From Candidatus Kapaibacterium sp. (GTDB lineage Bacteria; Bacteroidota; Ignavibacteria; Kapaibacteriales; UBA2268), in assembly GCA_937995785.1 (NCBI GenBank), contig CALKJQ010000048.1:1-40338 (forward strand): a DNA stretch of 40,338 nucleotides, in the 5' to 3' direction. The position numbers and the translations under genes are program-made. The notes beneath the pieces were generated by a model. That model saw only the letters and a list, made by a program, of their open reading frames with translations, searched no databases and was not told where the DNA came from. The first letter of the stretch is position 1. Each line of letters opens with the position of its first letter. Positions 11,509 to 35,336 of this stretch are shown here, piece by piece.

Positions 11509-13737
11509 TTATATTGCGGCGATTATAGAGTTGAATGTCGGACTTGGACGCATTGCCTTAGTTGTTAATTGAACGTCGGGATGGAAATATCCTCCAATAT
11601 CCACGGGATTACCTTGAGCGGCAAGCAATTCCTCATTAATTTTTGCTTCGTTTTCGATTATTTGTTGAGCAATAGGAGTAAATTTTGTTTTCAATTCCAT
11701 ATCTTTATCCTGTGAGGCAAGCGCTTGTGCCCAATACATTGCTAAATAAAAAGAACTACCACGGTTATCTATTTCGTTTACTTTTCGAGATGGTAATTTG
11801 CCGTTTTCTAAATACATTTCCACTGCTTTGTCCAAAGTTTCGATGTAAACAGCAACTTTGGGGTCTTGTGTTTTTTCGTAAATCAATTCTAATGATGGTA
11901 TTAAAGCGCAATATTCGCCCAACGAATCCCAACGTAAATGGCCTTCCTTCAAGAATTGTTGAACATGTTTTGGAGCAGAACCTCCCGCACCCGTCTCGAA
12001 CAAACCACCACCAGCAAGCAGTGGTACAATCGAAAGCATTCGAGCGCTTGTTCCTAATTCCAGAATTGGGAATAAATCCGTCAGATAATCACGAAGCACA
12101 TTACCCGTTACCGAAATAACATCCAACCCTTTGCGAACTCTTTCGCAAGACAATCGCATTGCTTCTTGTGGTTTCAATATTCTTATATCCATTCCCGTTG
12201 TGTCGTGTTCGGGCAAGTATTTATTAACTTTTTTGATTATCTCGCGGTCGTGGGCTCGGTTCTCGTCCAACCAGAAATAAGCTGGATTGCCCGTGGCCTT
12301 CACTCTGCGGACAGCCAATTTTACCCAATCGCGAATAGCAATATCTTTGGCTTGGCACATACGGAAAATATCACCTTTTTCTACGCTTTGCTCCATCAAA
12401 ACATTACCATCTAAATCCACCACGCGGATTATTCCATTGCCTTCGGCTTCGAAAGTTTTGTCGTGCGAACCATACTCTTCGGCTTTTTGTGCCATCAATC
12501 CAACATTAGATACATTGCCCATTGTTGATGGGTCGAACTGTCCATTTCGTTTGCAATCCTCGATAATTTCTTGATACATTGTTGCATACGACCTGTCGGG
12601 AATAATGCAGATTGTATCGCGTAACTGGTCGTTTTTGTCCCACATTTGACCACCATCGCGAACCACAACGGGCATCGAGGCATCGACGATTACGTTGTTT
12701 GGCACGTGCAAATTTGTGATGCCATATCTCGAATCTACCATCGCCAAATCGGGTTGGTTATCGTAACACTTGTTTATATCTGTTAAAATTTCGTTTTTCT
12801 TATCTTCGGGCAATCTGTCCAGCTTATCCAATATATCTTGCAAACCATTATTTACATTTGCACCAATTTGTTTTAGTGATTCTCTATGTTTATCCAACGC
12901 TTCTTTGTAATAAACTTCCACAGCGTGTCCAAACATTATTGGGTCGGAGATTTTCATCATCGTTGCTTTTAAATGAAGAGATAGCAACAAGTTGTCTTTG
13001 TGTGCTTCTTCGATGGTATCGGCATAAAATTTTCGCAATGCGGCAACATTCATAACCGAACTATCGATAACTTCGCCTTCGAGTAACGACAATTTTTCCT
13101 TCAATACTTTTACTTTTCCATCATTAGATACATATTCAATTCTCACGTTTGTGTCTTTATCCAATGTGAGAGATTTTTCGGAACCATAAAAATCTTTTTC
13201 GGTCATATGAGCAACCTTGGTCTTCATTCCCGCAGGGTTCCAAGGTTTCATCATTTTGTGTGGTTTCTTTTGAGCAAATTTTTTAACCGAAGCCGCAGGA
13301 CGTCGGTCGGAATTACCTTCGCGCAACACAGGATTGACAGCCGAACCAAGCACTTTGGAAAAGCGTTCTTGCAATTTTTTCTCTTCTTCATTTTTAGGTT
13401 CTTCGGGATAATCGGGAATGTTGTATCCTTGGGATTGCAATTCTTTAATTGTTGCTTGCAGCTGAGGGATAGAGGCACTAATATTTGGTAATTTGATTAC
13501 ATTTGCATCAGGCTGCTTAACGATATCGCCCAATTCTGCGAGATAATCGGGTATTTTTTGTTCTTCTGTTAAATTTTCGGGAAAATTGGCAATTATTCTT
13601 CCAGCCAACGAAATGTCCTTGGTCTCTACTTCGAGATTCGAGCCTTTAAAAAAAGCTTTAACAATTGGCAATAAGCAATAGCTTGCTAACTCGGGAGCTT
13701 CATCAATTTTGGTCCAGATAATTTTGTAATAATTCAT
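11509..13737 (-). CDS. icd: Isocitrate dehydrogenase (NADP), monomeric type
   Basis: A 742-residue monomeric NADP-dependent isocitrate dehydrogenase, converting isocitrate to 2-oxoglutarate and CO2 in the cytosol. The length matches this family (about 740) and excludes the 45-kDa dimeric type. Characteristic stretches include the N-terminal [20 protein letters not shown], the [20 protein letters not shown] region (about 143-162), FYGSEKS, and the central [20 protein letters not shown] segment with substrate- and cofactor-binding residues. The C-terminal half includes [19 protein letters not shown]. The gene is divergent from an aldehyde dehydrogenase and has its own -7 promoter element at 13799-13806 and a terminator downstream. 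Nothing looks truncated. Confidence 0.96.
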
Positions 13738-17478: not shown

Positions 17479-18177
17479 TTATTTATGTAACCTTCGGATT
17501 TGGAATATTTCCAAAAGCATTTTGGTGGAATCGACTATGGGATTGACTTTGGTTTTGGCATCGTTGTACCATTCAACGGGCACTTCGGCAACTTTATAAT
17601 TTGCCTTGTGTGCTAAATACAAAATTTCGACATCAAAACTAAAACCATCAATTTTGGATTGACCAAATAACTGGTGCGCAACTTGTTTTTTGAACATTTT
17701 GAAGCCACACTGGGTGTCGCTAATGCCCGAAAAAGTTAATAATTGCACTATCTTATTGAAGGTTTTGCCCATAAACTCTCTATAAAACGGTTGATGGAGC
17801 TTTATAAGTGAGGGGTCTATCGCCCGACTCCCTATTGCAATATCATAGCCGTTATTGAGTTCTGGTATTAATTTGTCGATTTCGTAAATTGGGGTGGAAA
17901 GATCGGCATCGCAAAAAAGGATGTAATTCCCCGTGGAAGTTAATATACCTTTTCGTATTGCGGCGCCTTTTCCGCTATTCCTTTTTAGTTGCACTACTTG
18001 GACGTCTGGGAATTGGTCGCGAGTGTTTTTTACTGTGTTGTCGGTGGAACCATCGTCGACTACGATTATTTCGAATGATTCTGTCCTATCTTTGATAAAA
18101 TCCGTGATTTTACGAAGAGAGAGCGGCAAGCGCTCCTCTTCGTTAAATGCAGGGATAACTATCGAAATATCAATCAT
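17479..18177 (-). CDS. GT2 glycosyltransferase, dolichyl/polyprenyl-phosphate sugar synthase-like
   Basis: A 232-residue GT-A glycosyltransferase of family 2. SIVIPAFNEEERL (about 5-17) and VVDDGSTDNT (39-48) form the nucleotide-sugar site. Asp90 and Asp92 in FCDADLSTP are the DXD metal ligands, and SDTQCGFKMF (153-162) is typical of the dolichyl-phosphate mannose or glucose synthases (DPM1/ALG5-like). No membrane helix is evident, as in soluble DPM1-type enzymes. It would move mannose or glucose from GDP or UDP to a polyprenyl phosphate at the inner membrane. Its ATG lies inside the end of the upstream DUF2723 gene (8-base overlap), indicating translational coupling, and the lipid-linked sugar it makes would suit that GT-C-like protein as a donor. 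The sugar is unknown. Confidence 0.9.
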   Translation of the reverse strand: MIDISIVIPAFNEEERLPLSLRKITDFIKDRTESFEIIVVDDGSTDNTVKNTRDQFPDVQVVQLKRNSGKGAAIRKGILTSTGNYILFCDADLSTPIYEIDKLIPELNNGYDIAIGSRAIDPSLIKLHQPFYREFMGKTFNKIVQLLTFSGISDTQCGFKMFKKQVAHQLFGQSKIDGFSFDVEILYLAHKANYKVAEVPVEWYNDAKTKVNPIVDSTKMLLEIFQIRRLHK

Positions 18178-21100
18178 TTTGGGCAGTGTCGCTGTTCATT
18201 AATTGATTAATTTTTGCTTCGACTTGTGGGATTAATTTTTTATAGTCTTGGTCGTTCGAATTTTTCATTTTATTCAACTCGTCTTGCAAGAACTTTATCT
18301 GTGCTGATTTGCCACCTTGTTTTTCGGCTTTTTCGAGTTGAAGCGTAAGTTGTTTGAAGTATAGCATTGGGATATTTTCGGTAATATAGGTATAGAATTG
18401 TGAGTATTCTGGATTTCCTTGGAGAGAATTGGCAAATTCGCGTGCATTTAAGATAGTTTCGTTAATAATTTCTGCACCCAAATTGTAATCCTTCATTAAA
18501 TATGCCATATCCGACATTACGGTATATGGTCCACGATAGCGCCCCATTAAGTCGTAAAGTTTAATTTCGAACATTACCTGATTGCGGGCAAGAGCAGTGC
18601 GAGCATTGTCGATTGTGTATTTTGCCCATTTTTTCATATTGTCGGTTTCGCCAACATTGTTATAAAGGTCGGCTACTCTTGCGGCTAAATTCCAATCCAA
18701 GGGGAATTGTTTTAATGATATCAATTCATCCATTTTTTGCAATACTAACTTTGCTTTTGCTTTATCGTTATTTTTGGTTATTAGATTTTGGGCAAACGAT
18801 AAGAACAGCATTCGATAACCTTCGATTGAACGGCGGTGCACTTCGTCGTAGAATACTGATGGATTGTTCAAATTTCGGAATTTGAAACCGTATTTTTGCT
18901 CTTTGCTATAATCATTTGAATTGTCGTAATTCAAGAGGCATTTTTCCATAATTCCAAAATCTAAGGGTATATCTTCAGTTGTATTCTGCAAAATGGGAGT
19001 AATTCGCAAAGCTAATCCACCACGAACTAAATGGTTGCGTAAACCGATATATACGTCCTCGCCAACTGTAGCGGAGAAGTAGATAGGTCTCTCGAATAAA
19101 TTAGTTTTCAGTATATCGAATACTAATTTATCTTGCACACGGAACAAGTAAACGGTTTTACCATCGTATTCGCCGTAATTTTGACCAGTATATGTAAATT
19201 CCATAATGCCATTATTGATTAATTCGGGATCGTTGGTGAATTGTTTCATTCTCTCGGGAGGTATTTTCAATCTAATTTGTCGTGCTTCGCCAAATTCGTA
19301 AGAAAATGCTCTAGCATCGGTCTCGTCGTAAATACTCAAGCTGTCGTTTGGTATACTAATGGGCACTCGTTTTGCTCCCCAGGGTTCTCGGTTTTTCAAT
19401 TGGTGGATATACCAAAGGGTATTGCCCAGACTAAGGTTAACAATTCTTACATCACGGCGGACACCAGCCACATCTTGCAGGTACCATACGGGAAATGTGT
19501 CGTTGTCTCCATTAGTAAATAATATTGCATCTTTTTCAACACTTTGTAGAATGTTGTAGGAATAATCGAACGGGAAATAATTGCCCGAGCGGTCGTGCAT
19601 CTTCCAGCCGCCCTTTGCCATATTTATCGGCACAAGTATCAAAGATATTGCAACAACGGCTGCGGGAATAAAGGCTTTATCCTGATATTTTCGCAAGGAT
19701 TCAATTATCGCAAACACTCCAACGCCAATCCACATCGCAAATATCATAAATGAACCTGTGTAGAAATAATCTCTTTCGCGCGGTTGAGGTTCTTGTTGGT
19801 TTTGCTGTATTGCTGCCAAGACCCCCATCATCAAAAATGCCAGAAGATAAATGAATGCCATTTTCTTATCGCGGGAGAAATGGAAAAACAATCCTATTAA
19901 ACCAAAGATTAAAGGCAGAGCAAAGAAACGAATTGGATAAATATCGCGATAACCATTGGCAACATTAATAGTTTCGGCTTCGCGATTGTCGAACCAAGCT
20001 GCACCCGCATCTTGAATGTCGGAGGAGCGCCCAACGAAATTCCATAAGAAATACCTGATATACATATGATATATTTGATACTTCCAAAGATAAGCCAATT
20101 CTCCGGCGGTGTTTATATTGGTAAATTCGGGAACTAAAAATCCGCTACCGTCCGATTTATAAACCTCTTTTTTTGTTGGTTGGTTCCAAGGTCCGTAAAC
20201 ATATTGACCTCTTTCGTCGGTTTTGTTGTAGTTTTGGACATAATAGCCATCGGTTTGGTATCGTCGGGGCCAATTTGGAGCATCACCATATTGCTCGCGA
20301 CCTAAATAAGATACCAAACGACTAACGGAATTAGGTTCGTTCTCGTTCATTGGTGGATTGGCATTGGAACGCAGTAATATTTGAGTATAAGTGGTATAAC
20401 CTAAAATTATAAGTAAAAAGGCCGAGGTTGCCAATGCAATAATTTGTTTTTCTTTCTTTTTTGCCCACCAAAGATAATAACCTGCAAGCACAACAGCAGC
20501 TATGGGTATTAAAGTAAGTACAAAACTATTTTCTATAGTATATTCGCGTGCAGCGTTTTTGCTTGGTGAGTGACCCGCCAATAATGCCGGTATCCACTTA
20601 ACAATTACGGGATAAATAATCGAAAATAGAATTACCGAAAAAATACCAACCAAAATGAATTTTACGGGTGTATGTTGATATTTGCGGAAATAAACTAAAT
20701 AGACAATAGAGAATATTGTTAATATTGCCAACAAGTGCACGCCCGTCGATAATCCAATTAAATAGGCAATTAGTAATAAATATTTTTCGTTGCCCGGTTT
20801 GTCGTAATTTTCGTTCCATAGCATCATTAAGTAGAGTATGATAGCAACGAATAAAGTTGAGGCGGCATAAACTTCGGATTCCACTCCGTTGAACCATAAT
20901 GTGTCGCTAAAATTAAAGGCAAGTGCACCAACAAAAGCCGAGCCATAAACCGACAAAATTTCAGTTGTGGATTGAGGTTCCCTACCTAATATACCTTGAA
21001 TAATTCTATAAGTAATCAAATAAGTTAGCAAAATTGTGAAAGCAGTTGCAACAACACTAACCATATTGATACGCCAACCATCATCTCCAAATGGGATTAA

Positions 21101-21295
21101 AAGATGGAAAACCTTTCCAATCATCAAGAAAAGGGGTGCCCCGGGCGGATGTGGCACTTGTTGCCATATCGAAGCTCCCGAAAATTCTCCACAATCCCAA
21201 AATGGCACTGATGGTTGAACAGTTAGCGTATAGGTTACAAGGGATACCACAAACGATAATGTGGCAAAAATCCGATTAATCAATTTTTTATCCAT
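18170..21295 (-). CDS. DUF2723/TMEM260-family membrane protein, probable GT-C glycosyltransferase
   Basis: A 1041-residue protein. About 12 membrane helices fill the N-terminal 580 residues, and a soluble C-terminal region (about 580-1041) includes TPR-like helices. The N-terminal loop contains WDCGEFSGASIWQQVPHPPG (Asp34, Glu37, His49), the signature of DUF2723, placed like the acidic catalytic loop of GT-C enzymes. Human TMEM260 of this family has been shown to be a protein O-mannosyltransferase; the bacterial members are mostly uncharacterised. The gene overlaps a polyprenyl-phosphate-sugar-synthase-like GT2 by 8 bases, a fitting donor source. I infer a role in glycosylating exported proteins or surface polymers from a lipid-linked sugar. 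The soluble part may bind the acceptor. Confidence 0.85.
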   Translation of the reverse strand: MDKKLINRIFATLSFVVSLVTYTLTVQPSVPFWDCGEFSGASIWQQVPHPPGAPLFLMIGKVFHLLIPFGDDGWRINMVSVVATAFTILLTYLITYRIIQGILGREPQSTTEILSVYGSAFVGALAFNFSDTLWFNGVESEVYAASTLFVAIILYLMMLWNENYDKPGNEKYLLLIAYLIGLSTGVHLLAILTIFSIVYLVYFRKYQHTPVKFILVGIFSVILFSIIYPVIVKWIPALLAGHSPSKNAAREYTIENSFVLTLIPIAAVVLAGYYLWWAKKKEKQIIALATSAFLLIILGYTTYTQILLRSNANPPMNENEPNSVSRLVSYLGREQYGDAPNWPRRYQTDGYYVQNYNKTDERGQYVYGPWNQPTKKEVYKSDGSGFLVPEFTNINTAGELAYLWKYQIYHMYIRYFLWNFVGRSSDIQDAGAAWFDNREAETINVANGYRDIYPIRFFALPLIFGLIGLFFHFSRDKKMAFIYLLAFLMMGVLAAIQQNQQEPQPRERDYFYTGSFMIFAMWIGVGVFAIIESLRKYQDKAFIPAAVVAISLILVPINMAKGGWKMHDRSGNYFPFDYSYNILQSVEKDAILFTNGDNDTFPVWYLQDVAGVRRDVRIVNLSLGNTLWYIHQLKNREPWGAKRVPISIPNDSLSIYDETDARAFSYEFGEARQIRLKIPPERMKQFTNDPELINNGIMEFTYTGQNYGEYDGKTVYLFRVQDKLVFDILKTNLFERPIYFSATVGEDVYIGLRNHLVRGGLALRITPILQNTTEDIPLDFGIMEKCLLNYDNSNDYSKEQKYGFKFRNLNNPSVFYDEVHRRSIEGYRMLFLSFAQNLITKNNDKAKAKLVLQKMDELISLKQFPLDWNLAARVADLYNNVGETDNMKKWAKYTIDNARTALARNQVMFEIKLYDLMGRYRGPYTVMSDMAYLMKDYNLGAEIINETILNAREFANSLQGNPEYSQFYTYITENIPMLYFKQLTLQLEKAEKQGGKSAQIKFLQDELNKMKNSNDQDYKKLIPQVEAKINQLMNSDTAQND

Positions 21296-26409: not shown

Positions 26410-26919
26410 TTATTGGGCTTGTTTATCGATAGATTTAACTTTTATTAAAATCTCGGGTACTTGATTGGGAGTTACATTGCCAAATACCTCATCGTTGATA
26501 GTTACAACCGGAGCCAGGGCGCATACTCCCAAACATCTGGTTCCCTCCAATGAGAACAAACCATCCGAGGTAGTTTCTTTTATGTCGATTCCCAATTCGT
26601 TCTTGAATGATTGAAGCACCAAATCGGCACCTTTAACAAAGCAGGCAGTTCCCATACATATTGATATTGAGTATTTTCCTTTGGGCTTCAATCTAAAGAA
26701 ATGGTAAAAAGTGGCAACACCATAAACAGTGGAGGTTGGAACTCCAAGTAAATGAGCCACTTCGTACATATGATCCTCCGAAAGAAATCCATAAATGCCT
26801 TGCACTTTGTGCAAAACCGCTATAAGATAGCTTTCGGGATGTTCTTTTTGGCGGCATTCTTCTATATAATCAACAATAGATTTATCTAAAGTTATGTTTA
26901 AGTGCGTTATGTCTCTCAT
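26410..26919 (-). CDS. hydC: [FeFe] hydrogenase subunit, NuoE-like [2Fe-2S] protein (HydC/HndA)
   Basis: A 169-residue thioredoxin-like [2Fe-2S] ferredoxin of the NuoE/HndA type. The four cluster cysteines are at 88 and 93 (CMGTACFVKGA) and at 129 and 133 (CLGVCALAP). The N-terminal helical part (about 15-75) with GVPTSTVYGVATFYHFF is typical. It is the small electron-transfer subunit of multimeric NAD(P)-linked [FeFe] hydrogenases. Its ATG overlaps the stop of the catalytic-subunit gene by 4 bases (ATGA), so translation is coupled. The product should pair with the NuoF-like subunit in the cytosolic complex. It is the last gene of the operon and a terminator follows. Confidence 0.92.
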   Translation of the reverse strand: MRDITHLNITLDKSIVDYIEECRQKEHPESYLIAVLHKVQGIYGFLSEDHMYEVAHLLGVPTSTVYGVATFYHFFRLKPKGKYSISICMGTACFVKGADLVLQSFKNELGIDIKETTSDGLFSLEGTRCLGVCALAPVVTINDEVFGNVTPNQVPEILIKVKSIDKQAQ

Positions 26920-28673
26920 TTCACACCTCTTGGATATTTTTCGGAATATGTTGTATGGAGCAAGTTATGAGCAATCTCGCTACCAGGTTTTTTCAGAAAT
27001 TCTTTATAAATTTTCTTAATAGAAGGATTCTCAGCCGAAATTCTAATTGATTTATTGGAATCAATCGAATAAATTGCCGCCTGACGTTGGCTAATTATAT
27101 GGGTATCCAATGGATAGACGAATTGTTCGGCTGGTTGATGAGGTTGACCGCCACCAGCAACGCAACCACCGGGGCAAGCCATTAATTCTATTATGTGGAA
27201 TTGTTTTTCGCCCGATTGTATTTTATCCAATATTTTTCGTGCATTTGCCAAACCATTGGCAACTGCAACATTTAATTCCATGCCATTTATTTTGATTGTT
27301 GCTTCTTTCAATCCTTCGATTGCTCTAACGTCGTAGAAATCTAAGTTCTCTGGTTTTTTGCCCGTTAATTTAAGAATAGCGGTCCTTAGCGCAGCTTCCA
27401 TTACTCCTCCGGTGGTGCCAAAAATCGCTGCAGCACCCGTGGATTCGCCCAATGGATCGTCGAAATCCGAATCAGGTAAGTTCACGAAATCTATACCCAT
27501 TGCTTTAATCATCCAAATAAGTTCGCGAGTTGTGAGCACTGCATCGGTATAGGGATAGCCCTCGGGAGCAAAGTGTTCTTGACGTCCCGCTTCATATTTT
27601 TTGGCAATACAAGGCATAATTGCAACAGAGTAAATATCCTTGGGGTCGATTCCTTTTTTCTGTGCATAATATGTTTTAACCAAAGTCGAAGTCATTTGCA
27701 TTGGCGATTTGCAAGTGGAAGCGTATGGTATCATTTCGGGATAGAAATGTTCCATAAAATTAATCCATCCAGGTGAGCATGAAGTTAGCAAGGGCAATTT
27801 CTCATTTTTTTCTATCCGATTTATCAATTCATTGGCTTCTTCCATAATGGTTAAATCCGCTCCAAAATTGGTGTCGAAAATTGCATCGAAACCTAATCGC
27901 CGTAATGCTTCGACTGTTTTGCCTGTTGCATCAACTCCCAGAATATCCCATCCTTCGGCTATTGCTACCCGAATAGCAGGCGCCACTTGGACCACTACAT
28001 GTTTTTTTGGATTGCTAAGTGCATCGAAAACCTCGTCGTAATGACTCTTTTCGGAGAAGGCGGCTGTTGGGCATACGTTAATACACTGTCCGCACATAAT
28101 ACAAACCGATTCGTCCATTTTGGATTCGAAAGCTGGTGCAACAACCGTAGTGAAACCCCGGTACATTTGACTTAAATTATAAACACCTTGAACTTCGGCA
28201 CAAACTCGTACGCAACGACGGCATAAAATACATTTTTCGGCGTCGCGAACGATAGCGGTGTTATCTTTTTCAATCGGAAAACGCTTCCTATCGCCCGCAA
28301 ATAATCTATCTCTCACCCCAAGACGATACGACAAATTCTGCAATTCGCAATTCCCATCGCGGTCGCAAGTGAGGCAAGCCCTTGGATGATTATCGAGCAG
28401 TAATTCAGTTAAATCTCTTCTTGTTTGTCGTAGTTCTGCCGAGTTTGTTCTCACTTTCATTCCCTCGGCAACTAATGTGTGGCACGAAGCAACAAAGTTT
28501 CGGTAACCTTCTACCTCGACAATACATATACGGCAAGCACCATCGGTGGATAGATAGGGATGATAACACAAACGCGGAACGTGAGCTCCCACCTTGTCGG
28601 CGGCTTGCATAATTGTAGTACCTTCGGGTACTTGTATATCAAAATCATCAATTTTTAAATTTATCATATTCAT
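26916..28673 (-). CDS. hydA: [FeFe] hydrogenase catalytic subunit, NAD(P)-linked multimeric type (HydA/HndD)
   Basis: A 585-residue group A [FeFe] hydrogenase, the same size I recall for Desulfovibrio HndD. N-terminal electron relay: a [2Fe-2S] domain (Cys36, 47, 50, 64), a His-Cys [4Fe-4S] domain (HPRACLTCDRDGNC, about 96-109) and a two-[4Fe-4S] domain (CILCRRCVRVC and CIMCGQCINVC). The H-cluster motifs are TSCSPGW (297-303), MPCIAKKYE (353-361) and ELMACPGGCVAGGGQP (496-511). The second Cys of the usual TSCCP is Ser300. With the NuoF- and NuoE-like subunits it would make or consume H2 with NAD(P)H, possibly bifurcating with ferredoxin. It begins 11 bases after the NuoF-like gene. Assembly needs HydEFG maturases, which are not in the window. 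Confidence 0.95.
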   Translation of the reverse strand: MNMINLKIDDFDIQVPEGTTIMQAADKVGAHVPRLCYHPYLSTDGACRICIVEVEGYRNFVASCHTLVAEGMKVRTNSAELRQTRRDLTELLLDNHPRACLTCDRDGNCELQNLSYRLGVRDRLFAGDRKRFPIEKDNTAIVRDAEKCILCRRCVRVCAEVQGVYNLSQMYRGFTTVVAPAFESKMDESVCIMCGQCINVCPTAAFSEKSHYDEVFDALSNPKKHVVVQVAPAIRVAIAEGWDILGVDATGKTVEALRRLGFDAIFDTNFGADLTIMEEANELINRIEKNEKLPLLTSCSPGWINFMEHFYPEMIPYASTCKSPMQMTSTLVKTYYAQKKGIDPKDIYSVAIMPCIAKKYEAGRQEHFAPEGYPYTDAVLTTRELIWMIKAMGIDFVNLPDSDFDDPLGESTGAAAIFGTTGGVMEAALRTAILKLTGKKPENLDFYDVRAIEGLKEATIKINGMELNVAVANGLANARKILDKIQSGEKQFHIIELMACPGGCVAGGGQPHQPAEQFVYPLDTHIISQRQAAIYSIDSNKSIRISAENPSIKKIYKEFLKKPGSEIAHNLLHTTYSEKYPRGVK

Positions 28674-28684
28674 ATTATTCCTCG

Positions 28685-30865
28685 CTATATTTTAATAATT
28701 GCGTCGAACTTGCAAGAATTGTAACACTCGCCGCATTTAATACATTGATCTTGAATAATTTCGTGAGGCAATCTCTTATTTCCAATAATACAATTAACCG
28801 GACATCGTCGAGCACATACCGTACACCCCGTGCATTTGTCGGGCTCGATAATGTATTTGATTAATTGCGTGCACTTTTGGGTGGGACATCTTTGCTCTTT
28901 TATGTGTATTTCGAATTCTTCGCGAAAATTTTGCAACGAACTCAACACGGGGTTTGGAGCGGATTGTCCCAAACCGCACAACGAGGATTTTTGCATCAAT
29001 CTGCCAAGTCGTTCCAATTTATCAATATCTTCTAATGTAGCATTCCCGGTTGTGATTCTATCCAAAATTTCTAACATACGAACAGTTCCTTCGCGGCATG
29101 GCAAGCATTTACCACAACTTTCATCCTTGGTAAATTCCAGAAAGAATCTGCAAGTGGAAACGATGCAATCTGTATCGTCGAGTACAATCATACCTCCCGA
29201 ACCCATCATAGAACCTACTTCTTTGAGCGATTCATAGTCCACTGGAGTATCGATTTTGGATACAGGAATACACCCGCCCGATGGTCCTCCCGTTTGGACT
29301 GCTTTTAATTCTCGTCCATTTGGTATGCCACCTCCAATATCGTAGATTATTTCTCTTAGAGTAGTACCCATTGGCACTTCCACCAAACCCGTGTTCTTCA
29401 CTTTGCCAGCCAATGCAAACACTTTGGTGCCTTTGCTACCTTCAGTTCCAATTTTATTGAACCAGTCTGCACCGTATAGCATAATTGCGGGAACGTTTGC
29501 CCAAGTTTCCACATTGTTAATGTTGGTTGGGTGACCCCATAAACCTTTAACCGAAGGGAATGGAGGACGAAAAACGGGTTGTCCACGCTGCCCTTCGATG
29601 GATTTAATCAATGCAGTTTCTTCGCCACACACAAAGGCGCCCGCACCGAGACGGATTTCGATATCGAATGCAAAATCGGAACCCAGTATATTGTTTCCAA
29701 GTAATCCGAATTTTCTTGCTTCTTTTATTGCATTTTCCAATCTTTTTATAGCCAATGGATATTCTGCCCTAACATATATATAGCCTTTGCAAGCTCCCAT
29801 TGCATAGCCGCCAATTGTCATTCCTTCGATAATGCTAAATGGGTCGCCTTCGAGAGCACTTCTGTCCATAAATGCACCGGGGTCGCCTTCGTCGGCATTA
29901 CAAATAACATATTTTATTGGGTCGGGATTGGAATTTCGAGTGATTTTCCACTTCAATCCCGTTGAGAAACCACCACCACCGCGACCTCTTAGTCCCGATT
30001 TTATAATTTCGTCTATCACCCATTCGGGATTGCCTTTGAACAATACGTGTGCCAATGCTTCGTAACCTTGGGCATGAATGTAGTCCACCAAACTTTCGGG
30101 GTCTATTATTCCACAATTTCTGAGTGTAATTCTGTTTTGTTTATTAAAAAATGATAAATCACCGTAGAATTTTATGTATTTTTCAACCAAGTCGCGTGCA
30201 AAAACGTGGTTTTCCTTCACCAACACATTGTCGATAAATTGTCCCTTGATAATTGTTCGTAAATCTTCCTCTGTCGAAAAGCCATATAGAATGTTCTCGG
30301 GGAAAACCATCAATATTCCATCGAATTCTGATGCACTTCGATGACGTATCTCAATTTCGCCTCCATATAAAACACGAACATCGTAGTAAATTCCGTATTC
30401 TTCGAGTATCGAATTTATTTTTTTACCCCAACGTTCATAAAACTCAGTGGAGCTATGTTTGCTACCGAATATAGTTACTACCCATTTACAAAGTAGATTT
30501 GTGTGTTTGTCCAACATAAACTTAGTAACCGGTGCTCCTTTAAGAATATGTTCATTGAATATCTCATTAACTTTCTCGGTTGTAACTTTGCTATATTTCA
30601 CCGGAATTTGATTGGGAATAAAAACGCTAACAATTGGTTCTTGGGAGCATCGCCCCGTGCAACCCGTTTGTTTAACTACGATATCGTTTCGACCTGATGC
30701 CCTTATCAACTTTTGAAATTCGTCTCGAGCGATGTCGGAGCCTGCGGCTTTTTCGCAAGTTGCCGAACCAACTTGGATTATTATCTTTCCCGTTCTGTCG
30801 GCATCGGTTGAAGCAAAATCGAGTTCTCTTTTTAATGTTTCGTATTCAAGCAGTATGTTTGCCAT
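28685..30865 (-). CDS. hydB: [FeFe] hydrogenase NuoF-like flavin subunit with extra thioredoxin-like domain (HydB/HndC)
   Basis: A 726-residue diaphorase subunit. N-terminal thioredoxin-like ferredoxin domain (about 25-120) with Cys37, 69 and 73; the first of the usual four cysteines is missing. A segment at about 122-222 is extra compared with HydB proteins of about 600-630 residues and resembles a second such domain without cluster cysteines. The NuoF core (about 255-600) has the NADH/FMN loop [16 protein letters not shown] (291-306), [23 protein letters not shown] and the [4Fe-4S] motif [11 protein letters not shown] with [12 protein letters not shown]. The C-terminus carries two [4Fe-4S] motifs ([12 protein letters not shown] and [11 protein letters not shown]). 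It moves electrons between NAD(P)H and the hydrogenase or ferredoxin. It is first in the operon, with a -7 element at 30917-30924. Confidence 0.93.
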
Positions 30866-33941: not shown

Positions 33942-35336
33942 TCATCTATCAACTACAGCGGCTTGTAATTCAGCTTCGGCTACAACTTGTTGGTCTACCC
34001 AAGCGGTTGCATTAAAATAATATATTCCAAACTTTGATTTTATTAATTTTAAATCCAACACGAGTTGGTCGCCCGGAACCACTGGTTTACGGAACTTAGC
34101 ATTATTTATCGATGAAAAATAAGCTAATTTCTTTTTTGGATTTTCTAATTTATGAAAAATAAGAATACCACCCGTTTGAGCCAAAGCTTCTAAAATCAAC
34201 ACTCCGGGCATTACTGGTTTTCCCGGAAAATGACCCAAGAAAAACTCCTCGTTCATCGTAACATTTTTCAACGCGATAATTCTGTCATCATTTTTATCAT
34301 ATTCGATCACTTTATCGACCAATAAAAATGGATATCTGTGGGGCAAAATATCCAAAATAGAATCAATGTTGAGTGATGTTTGGCTTTTGCGGTTTGGTTT
34401 TATTTTATTTAATTTTTTCTTTTCTAAGTAGGATTTTCTGACGAGTTTGCTAAATTCATAATTTGCGGCATGCCCTGGGCGTGCGGCTAATATCTGGGCT
34501 TTAATAGGTACGCCTATTAAAGTAAGGTCGCCTATCATATCCAATAATTTATGGCGTGCAGGTTCATTTTTGAAGCGAAGTTGTTTATTGTTTAGATAAC
34601 CATTTTGACCTACGAATGGAGTTTCTGTTAGATTTAACATTCTAGCAATGTTATCAAGGTCGGCTGAATTAACTTCTTTGTCCACTATTACCAATGCTGA
34701 GTCGACGTTTCCACCTTTTATCAAGCCTGCTTGATGGAGCATCTCTACTTCGTTCAAAAAGCAAAAAGTGCGTGCAGGAGCAAATTCATCGATAAATTCC
34801 TTTTCCATATCGAATAAACCGGTGTGCTGACTGCCCAAAGCAGGGTTGAAGTAGTCAATCATAACTGTAATTCGATAGTCATTCAATGGCAAGGCTACGA
34901 TTTCGACAAATTTTTCTTCGTTTTTGTAATCAATTGTTTCGTCGATGTAGAAATATTCACGTTCTGCGTCTTGCTCTTCAATCCCAGCTTCGAGCAAAGC
35001 CTCGACATATTTTTTGGAACTACCATCGAAAACGGGAGGTTCGTTTGCCGATAGTTCTATCAAGCAATTATCGATTTTGAGCCCGGCCAATGCCGCCAAA
35101 ACGTGTTCGACCGTATGAACTTTAACGTCCCCTATTCCTAAGGTGGTGCCACGCGATAAATCCACAACATAATCTACTAAAGCTGGTATTTCGATTTTTT
35201 CGGGGACATCGCTACGAATAAAACGATATCCGAAATTTGGAGTGGCTGGATGGAATGTTATTGTTGAATGATTACCTGTGTGTAAACCAATTCCGGTTAA
35301 ATTTATTGATTTTTTAAGAGTTCTTTGTTTTTCCAT
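33942..35336 (-). CDS. lpxC/fabZ: Bifunctional LpxC-FabZ (UDP-3-O-acyl-GlcNAc deacetylase / 3-hydroxyacyl-ACP dehydratase)
   Basis: A 464-residue fusion. The LpxC part (about 1-305) is the Zn-dependent deacetylase that commits lipid A synthesis, with SINLTGIGLHTGNHSTITFH at the N-terminus, zinc ligands in VHTVEHVLAAL and near RHKLLDMIGDL, and EFAPARTFCFLNEVE. The FabZ part (about 325-464) dehydrates 3-hydroxyacyl-ACP; its catalytic His is in LPHRYPFLLVD and Glu in GVLILEALAQTGG. The fusion is a known trait of Bacteroidota and Chlorobiota and supports the taxonomic placement. lpxA follows after 7 bases. A minus-strand -7 element at 35382-35389 precedes the gene. lpxD, often upstream in relatives, is absent here. 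Confidence 0.97.
   Translation of the reverse strand: MEKQRTLKKSINLTGIGLHTGNHSTITFHPATPNFGYRFIRSDVPEKIEIPALVDYVVDLSRGTTLGIGDVKVHTVEHVLAALAGLKIDNCLIELSANEPPVFDGSSKKYVEALLEAGIEEQDAEREYFYIDETIDYKNEEKFVEIVALPLNDYRITVMIDYFNPALGSQHTGLFDMEKEFIDEFAPARTFCFLNEVEMLHQAGLIKGGNVDSALVIVDKEVNSADLDNIARMLNLTETPFVGQNGYLNNKQLRFKNEPARHKLLDMIGDLTLIGVPIKAQILAARPGHAANYEFSKLVRKSYLEKKKLNKIKPNRKSQTSLNIDSILDILPHRYPFLLVDKVIEYDKNDDRIIALKNVTMNEEFFLGHFPGKPVMPGVLILEALAQTGGILIFHKLENPKKKLAYFSSINNAKFRKPVVPGDQLVLDLKLIKSKFGIYYFNATAWVDQQVVAEAELQAAVVDR

Follow-up and report, generated by a model that had tools for sequence, protein, structure and literature searches.

A long TMEM260-like GT-C protein encoded beside a GT2 gene in Kapaibacteriales as a candidate initiating O-mannosyltransferase of Bacteroidota

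Exported proteins of Bacteroidota are glycosylated at motifs formed by an aspartate, a serine or threonine and a hydrophobic residue (D-S/T-hydrophobic), on which a core made of a hexose (mannose), a deoxyhexose (rhamnose) and then glucuronate is built (PMC12871550). This general O-glycosylation requires a mannose-initiating enzyme and its core enzymes are unassigned in the literature: the published pathway model proposes an oligosaccharyltransferase, and a 2025 review, in which the flippase, the transferase and the ligase of the core are said to 'remain undiscovered', recommends seeking homologues of the eukaryotic O-mannosylation enzymes (PMC12871550). An enrichment of the motif has also been reported for Fibrobacterota (PMC12871550). 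Two described systems are close points of comparison. Human TMEM260 (CAZy GT117, PF11028; PDB 9rql, 9rqm and 9rqn) is an O-mannosyltransferase that modifies IPT domains with a mannose to which no further sugars are added (PMC11292533), in contrast to the elongated core of Bacteroidota (PMC12871550). In Streptomyces, Ppm1 and Pmt are a proven bacterial polyprenyl-phosphate-mannose synthase and extracytoplasmic protein O-mannosyltransferase, respectively (PMC5882110). Here we analyzed a window of 40,338 nucleotides of Candidatus Kapaibacterium sp. (contig CALKJQ010000048.1, the contig C48 of a 2.2 Mb genome assembled in 153 contigs, GCA_937995785.1), a member of the same phylum, which encodes a long TMEM260-like membrane protein, hereafter T, and a family 2 glycosyltransferase (GT2). 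T appears as a good candidate for the initiating O-mannosyltransferase of the phylum because of its homology to TMEM260 and its predicted GT-C fold, its near-universality, the mannose-first system of the phylum, the motif enrichment in exported proteins and the gene clusters found in KSB1 and Calditrichota.

The gene of T (1041 residues, positions 18170-21295 of the minus strand) was identified from its open reading frame (ORF), Pfam matches, homology and a structural model. T matched the family PF11028 (DUF2723, "Protein O-mannosyl-transferase TMEM260-like") with an E-value of 5e-59 and a score of 199 bits, the gathering score being 24.2; this domain covers residues 34-208 (20672-21196, minus strand). 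Among the PDB sequences, human TMEM260, represented by 9rql and two other entries, was the sole relative of T recovered by phmmer, with an E-value of 3e-17, and the only significant match of a T profile, with an E-value of 8e-26. The alignment of T with human TMEM260 consists of two co-linear blocks, the second around T residues 475-637. The first periplasmic loop of T (residues 26-53, QPSVPFWDCGEF...HPPG; 21137-21220, minus strand) was defined from the orthologue alignment and the model. It holds the signature PFWDCGEF...HPPG, in agreement with the WDCGEF...HPPG noted in the sequence-only reading, and W33, D34, C35, E37, H49, P50, P51 and G52 are invariant among 38 orthologues from the order. 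D34 aligns with the aspartate of the human GGDSGEL, HPPG is conserved, and the invariant D34 and E37 are candidate catalytic acids. The proposed likeness to TMEM260 was thus borne out as a homology that includes the acidic first loop. T and the human enzyme have in common an N-terminal GT-C module, the Asp loop and HPPG; T differs by being longer (1041 versus 729 residues) and bacterial, and by a WDCGEF in place of GGDSGEL. Searching Pfam at E-values up to 1, no PMT or STT3 match was detected in T and only PF11028 and a weak DUF4131 were retrieved. The Streptomyces Pmt belongs to another GT-C family.

The AlphaFold2 model of T (pLDDT of 86, pTM of 0.85) has a helix spanning residues 3-25, the first transmembrane helix, followed by the acidic loop and by a short helix at residues 36-44. 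The top structural matches of this model were all GT-C enzymes, with Z-scores of 17-19: STT3 (18.8), ALG12 (18.2), ArnT (18.2), Pmt4 (18.1), Pmt1-Pmt2 (18.0) and PglB (16.9); AftB and the Emb enzymes also matched the fold. The TMEM260 entries were not among these structural matches, perhaps due to the date of the library, which provides no evidence against the fold. The model displays a GT-C fold with an acidic loop, and not a fold devoid of such a loop. The C-terminal 230 residues (region 811-1041; 18173-18865, minus strand) are all-helical in the model and TPR-like at best, their identity as repeats being weak because the helical-repeat matches reached Z-scores of only 8-9. Homology and fold place T in the TMEM260 family of GT-C proteins, as a predicted periplasm-facing glycosyltransferase.

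T was found in 294 of the 296 Bacteroidota genomes and also in Chlorobi, KSB1, Calditrichota and Marinimicrobia records, its close named relatives being 'Candidatus Kapaibacterium' and metagenome-assembled genomes (MAGs) labelled Ignavibacteria. Among 14 well-known control genomes, PF11028 was present in one, a Bacteroides. Two forms of the family could be distinguished: the long and the short forms occur together in Kapaibacteriales genomes and in G158, of the same class, while only the long form was found in three Bacteroidota outside the class of the window (G042, G066 and G199). The short form is common in the order. In the genome of the window it is represented by a second PF11028 protein of 626 residues (L002:1402-3282, on contig C81 of G000, the genome of the window), located beside a photolyase-like gene and carrying TFTDNGEL...HPTGYPLF, a loop nearer in look to that of human TMEM260 than the loop of T. 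The long form is itself duplicated in tandem at the loci L041, L110 and L169, and a GT2 similar to that of the window then follows in L041 and L110. At the locus L150, T is broken into separate ORFs of 724 and 274 residues, and such a GT2 lies upstream rather than downstream.

The exported proteins of the order were then examined for the published glycosylation motif. For this purpose, we calculated the odds ratio for an Asp preceding S/T when a hydrophobic residue follows, exported proteins being recognised with a simple signal-peptide rule; the samples relied on heuristic gene and signal calls and covered about 500 kb for the genome of the window. The odds ratio was 2.67 (2.19-3.25) for the exported proteins of the order and 1.38 for the cytosolic ones, versus 1.13 and 1.03, respectively, in E. 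coli. Homologues of ManC and RmlD types are encoded in the genome of the window and in 23 relatives, the RmlD scores lying below the equivalog cut-off in the genus of the window. We know of no glycoproteome for the order Kapaibacteriales.

The neighbourhoods of T were compared between lineages by a simple ORF picking, counting the loci with a glycosyltransferase within three ORFs of T. Such a neighbour was present in 24 of the 35 loci of the Ignavibacteria class, where GT9- and GT4-like enzymes were found, in 10 of the 11 KSB1, Calditrichota or unnamed loci and in all 6 Marinimicrobia loci. In KSB1, glycosyltransferases amounted to 0.186 per ORF near T versus 0.140 elsewhere, and since these loci are rich in glycosyltransferases overall, the neighbour count alone is not specific in this lineage. 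The T clusters of Calditrichota and KSB1 comprise a methyltransferase, a GT4, T, a flippase-like protein (TIGR00374) or a GT2, DUF4837 and PurE, together with RmlD (TIGR01214 above the cut-off), a DPM1-like GT2 and further GT2s.

This DPM1-like GT2 belongs to a family (A3) separate from that of the GT2 of the window, and carries the DPM1 signature GYSFQIEM...DR..G.SKM. Compared to solved structures, the A3 family matched a dolichol-phosphate-mannose synthase (5mlz) with an E-value of 1e-43 and 153 bits, the next match reaching 61 bits. A DPM1-like GT2 was identified in 147 of 148 Bacteroidota, almost always as one copy; in the genome of the window it is located at G000:C76:28424-29119. At L265 and L268 its neighbours are glycosyltransferase, flippase-type (PF01943) or sugar-phosphate-transferase (PF02397) genes; at L267 they are a GT2 protein and a membrane protein that had no match and is possibly Wzx-like. 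From these sequence comparisons, the DPM1-like GT2 is a likelier source of lipid-linked mannose than the GT2 adjoining T. Another overlapping pair exists in the genome of the window (L245:827-3159, on contig C114), made of a GT2 of 243 residues and a GT-C-type PMT_2 (PF13231) protein; this GT2 was considered as a DPM1-like synthase and rejected, being a different GT2.

The GT2 adjoining T is encoded downstream of it (232 residues, 17479-18177, minus strand) and the end of T overlaps the start of GT2 by 8 bases (18170-18177, minus strand). Both ORFs and their overlap, as given in the sequence-only reading, were recovered from the ORF coordinates. The overlap recurs in L050 and L052, which belong to the genus of the window, and is consistent with a translational coupling; in the other genera of the order, T and GT2 are close, usually with a gap between them. 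The gene pair is not due to chance, as T orthologues are 45-72% identical throughout the order and keep the invariant loop residues. The GT2 matched PF00535 with an E-value of 1e-31. The DAD and DTQCGFK motifs picked out earlier proved invariant across 18 orthologues, the second within a conserved DTQCGFK...FDVE...W.ND. These motifs are presumably ALG5-like, ALG5 being a dolichyl-phosphate-glucose synthase. Characterised ALG5 and AglJ members make dolichyl-phosphate-glucose or -hexose. For 17 of the 18 orthologues, the NCBIfam model that scored highest was AglJ, far below its equivalog cut-off (81 versus 325 bits). The best solved match was the Pyrococcus dolichol-phosphate-mannose synthase (112 bits with a profile), with ArnC close behind, and the DPM1 signature is absent from the GT2 of the window and from its orthologues. 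The assignment to a DPM1/ALG5 type thus held for a polyprenyl-phosphate-sugar synthase with a DAD motif, common to the ALG5/AglJ- and DPM1-type synthases, and failed for the DPM1 side, the motifs looking ALG5/AglJ-like. Contrary to the Streptomyces Ppm1, this GT2 is not clearly a mannose synthase. It is a candidate ALG5/AglJ-like polyprenyl-phosphate-hexose synthase and probably an extra enzyme specific to the order.

How far this GT2 accompanies T was surveyed in 40 genomes of the order, including that of the window, a strong GT2 orthologue being defined by a score of 286 bits or more. Strong orthologues were detected in 31 of the 40 genomes and lie directly beside the long T in 22 of these 31. 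Within the order, no other neighbour of T is as conserved as GT2. GT2 also adjoins T in the Ignavibacteria MAG of L110 and in L150. Of the 9 genomes in which GT2 is missing, 8 keep the long T, one of them only as a fragment at a contig edge; T is kept and GT2 missing in the families f2, f6, f8 and f9. In the Bacteroidia set, none of the 31 T neighbourhoods contained GT2. The expected co-occurrence is thus a conserved adjacency within the order that does not extend outside it: the link between GT2 and T is real within Kapaibacteriales and is not obligatory. In G020, GT2 is located two genes from the short paralogue. When away from T, GT2 is often followed by a major facilitator superfamily (MFS) gene (L253:6123-8059, L254:5882-7823, L257:6866-8639 and L258:91-2182), and this conserved pair might include a lipid-sugar flippase. 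A replacement of the DPM1-like GT2 by the ALG5-like GT2 in the family f3, where G034 lacks the former and G025 has it split, was rejected because the six other f3 genomes have both.

The sequence-only reading had presented T and GT2 as a complete donor-plus-transferase unit. The homology of T, its GT-C fold, the glycosyltransferase neighbours in several lineages and the mannose-first system of the phylum agree with that proposal, which is weakened by the survey because GT2 is no general partner of T, a clearer DPM1-type synthase is encoded elsewhere and the GT2 motifs look ALG5/AglJ-like. From the homology, fold, near-universality, conserved neighbours and motif enrichment described above, we infer a different scheme, in its donor, acceptor and sugar as in every reaction. 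The DPM1-like GT2 (G000:C76:28424-29119) would load polyprenyl phosphate with mannose, as suggested by its family. The lipid-mannose would be flipped, the leads for this step being the TIGR00374 proteins of KSB1 and the MFS gene that follows the ALG5-like GT2. T would then put the mannose on D-S/T sites of exported proteins by means of D34, a role in line with its homology, its fold and the phyletic match. Other enzymes would next add rhamnose, glucuronate and the outer glycan, in the order given by the published structures. In Kapaibacteriales, the gene order suggests that the ALG5-like GT2 may be co-expressed with T and supply another polyprenyl-phosphate-hexose, perhaps for T or for the short paralogue. 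That T takes a single mannose from a polyprenyl-phosphate carrier, attaches it to Ser/Thr of exported proteins and so starts the Bacteroidota O-glycan, with the DPM1-like GT2 as donor maker and the adjacent GT2 as an extra, is in our estimate about evenly poised between right and wrong. The broader proposal, in which the long TMEM260-like protein is the missing initiator in Bacteroidota and sister phyla, draws on a polyprenyl-monophosphate-mannose donor rather than on an oligosaccharyltransferase route and belongs to a system homologous to human TMEM260 O-mannosylation, is put forward tentatively and falls slightly short of an even chance.

Several observations weigh against initiation by T. 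The matches of the GT-C fold do not tell monosaccharide-phosphate from oligosaccharide-diphosphate donors, and the first sugar of the glycan has been given as 'mannose or other hexose' (PMC10897501). In the window's own genome the motif odds ratio is modest, 2.31 for exported versus 1.67 for cytosolic proteins, and an earlier, smaller sample of it gave no difference; Chlorobi have T and show little motif enrichment. No glycosyltransferase was detected within three ORFs of T in the 11 Chlorobi, 6 Balneolaceae and 31 Bacteroidia loci. Near-universal genes co-occur trivially, so that the co-occurrence is weak evidence. Finally, in G101, rated 100% complete in 160 contigs, the long T was not found and a short PF11028 gene lies at L272, the motif being still enriched; this seems to reflect either an assembly gap or a real loss, the latter counting against T as initiator.

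The adjacent GT2 could make the donor of T directly, the pair forming a self-contained O-hexosylation unit, perhaps for glucose, apart from the mannose-first system. The overlap and an adjacency conserved at deep divergence in the order speak for such a unit, as does the polyprenyl-phosphate-sugar synthase type of the GT2, but the long T persists in 8 of the 9 order genomes devoid of GT2 (counting the contig-edge fragment), no T neighbourhood of the Bacteroidia set contains GT2, and GT2 lies close to the short paralogue in G020 or elsewhere precedes an MFS gene without T; we regard this possibility as unlikely. T could also be an oligosaccharyltransferase, the enzyme type proposed in the published Bacteroidota model (PMC12871550), and would then transfer a core already assembled on a polyprenyl-diphosphate carrier. 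STT3 and PglB are indeed among the best structural matches (Z-scores of 16.9-18.8), tied with PMT. Against this stand the sequence comparisons, which returned TMEM260 as the only PDB relative of T and no STT3 Pfam match at E-values up to 1, and the presence of a DPM1-like synthase in T clusters; an oligosaccharyltransferase activity of T is, in our opinion, improbable. The remaining alternative concerns the acceptor, which might be a non-protein component of the envelope (lipopolysaccharide, capsule or another lipid-linked glycan) as for ArnT or the mycobacterial GT-C enzymes. While ArnT, AftB and the Emb enzymes match the fold of T and GT9- and GT4-like neighbours occur in Ignavibacteria-class loci, T shares homology with an enzyme that O-mannosylates proteins, and the exported proteins of most T-bearing groups show the motif enrichment; we give little credence to this alternative.

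Elsewhere in the window, three genes at 26410-30865 (minus strand) encode a thioredoxin-like [2Fe-2S] protein, an iron-only hydrogenase and a Nuo51-like subunit, and resemble a trimeric NADH-linked [FeFe] hydrogenase. An LpxC fused to a FabA-like domain is encoded at 33942-35336 (minus strand) and a monomeric isocitrate dehydrogenase at 11509-13737 (minus strand).

In the literature searched, whose scope left aside preprints and most subscription papers, neither a function assignment for a bacterial TMEM260-like protein nor the term DUF2723 was found. The family of T is itself known; what may be new is the case for the TMEM260 family as the missing initiator of a phylum-wide modification. Candidates are hereby named for a near-universal transferase (T), a near-universal donor synthase (the DPM1-like GT2) and, in the clusters of the sister phyla, the accessory RmlD, GT4, methyltransferase and flippase-like protein. 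If the proposal is true, the pathway could be tested by removing one or two genes in a laboratory strain, and an enzyme family linked to human disease would be connected with a major modification of the surface of bacteria from gut, sea and soil.

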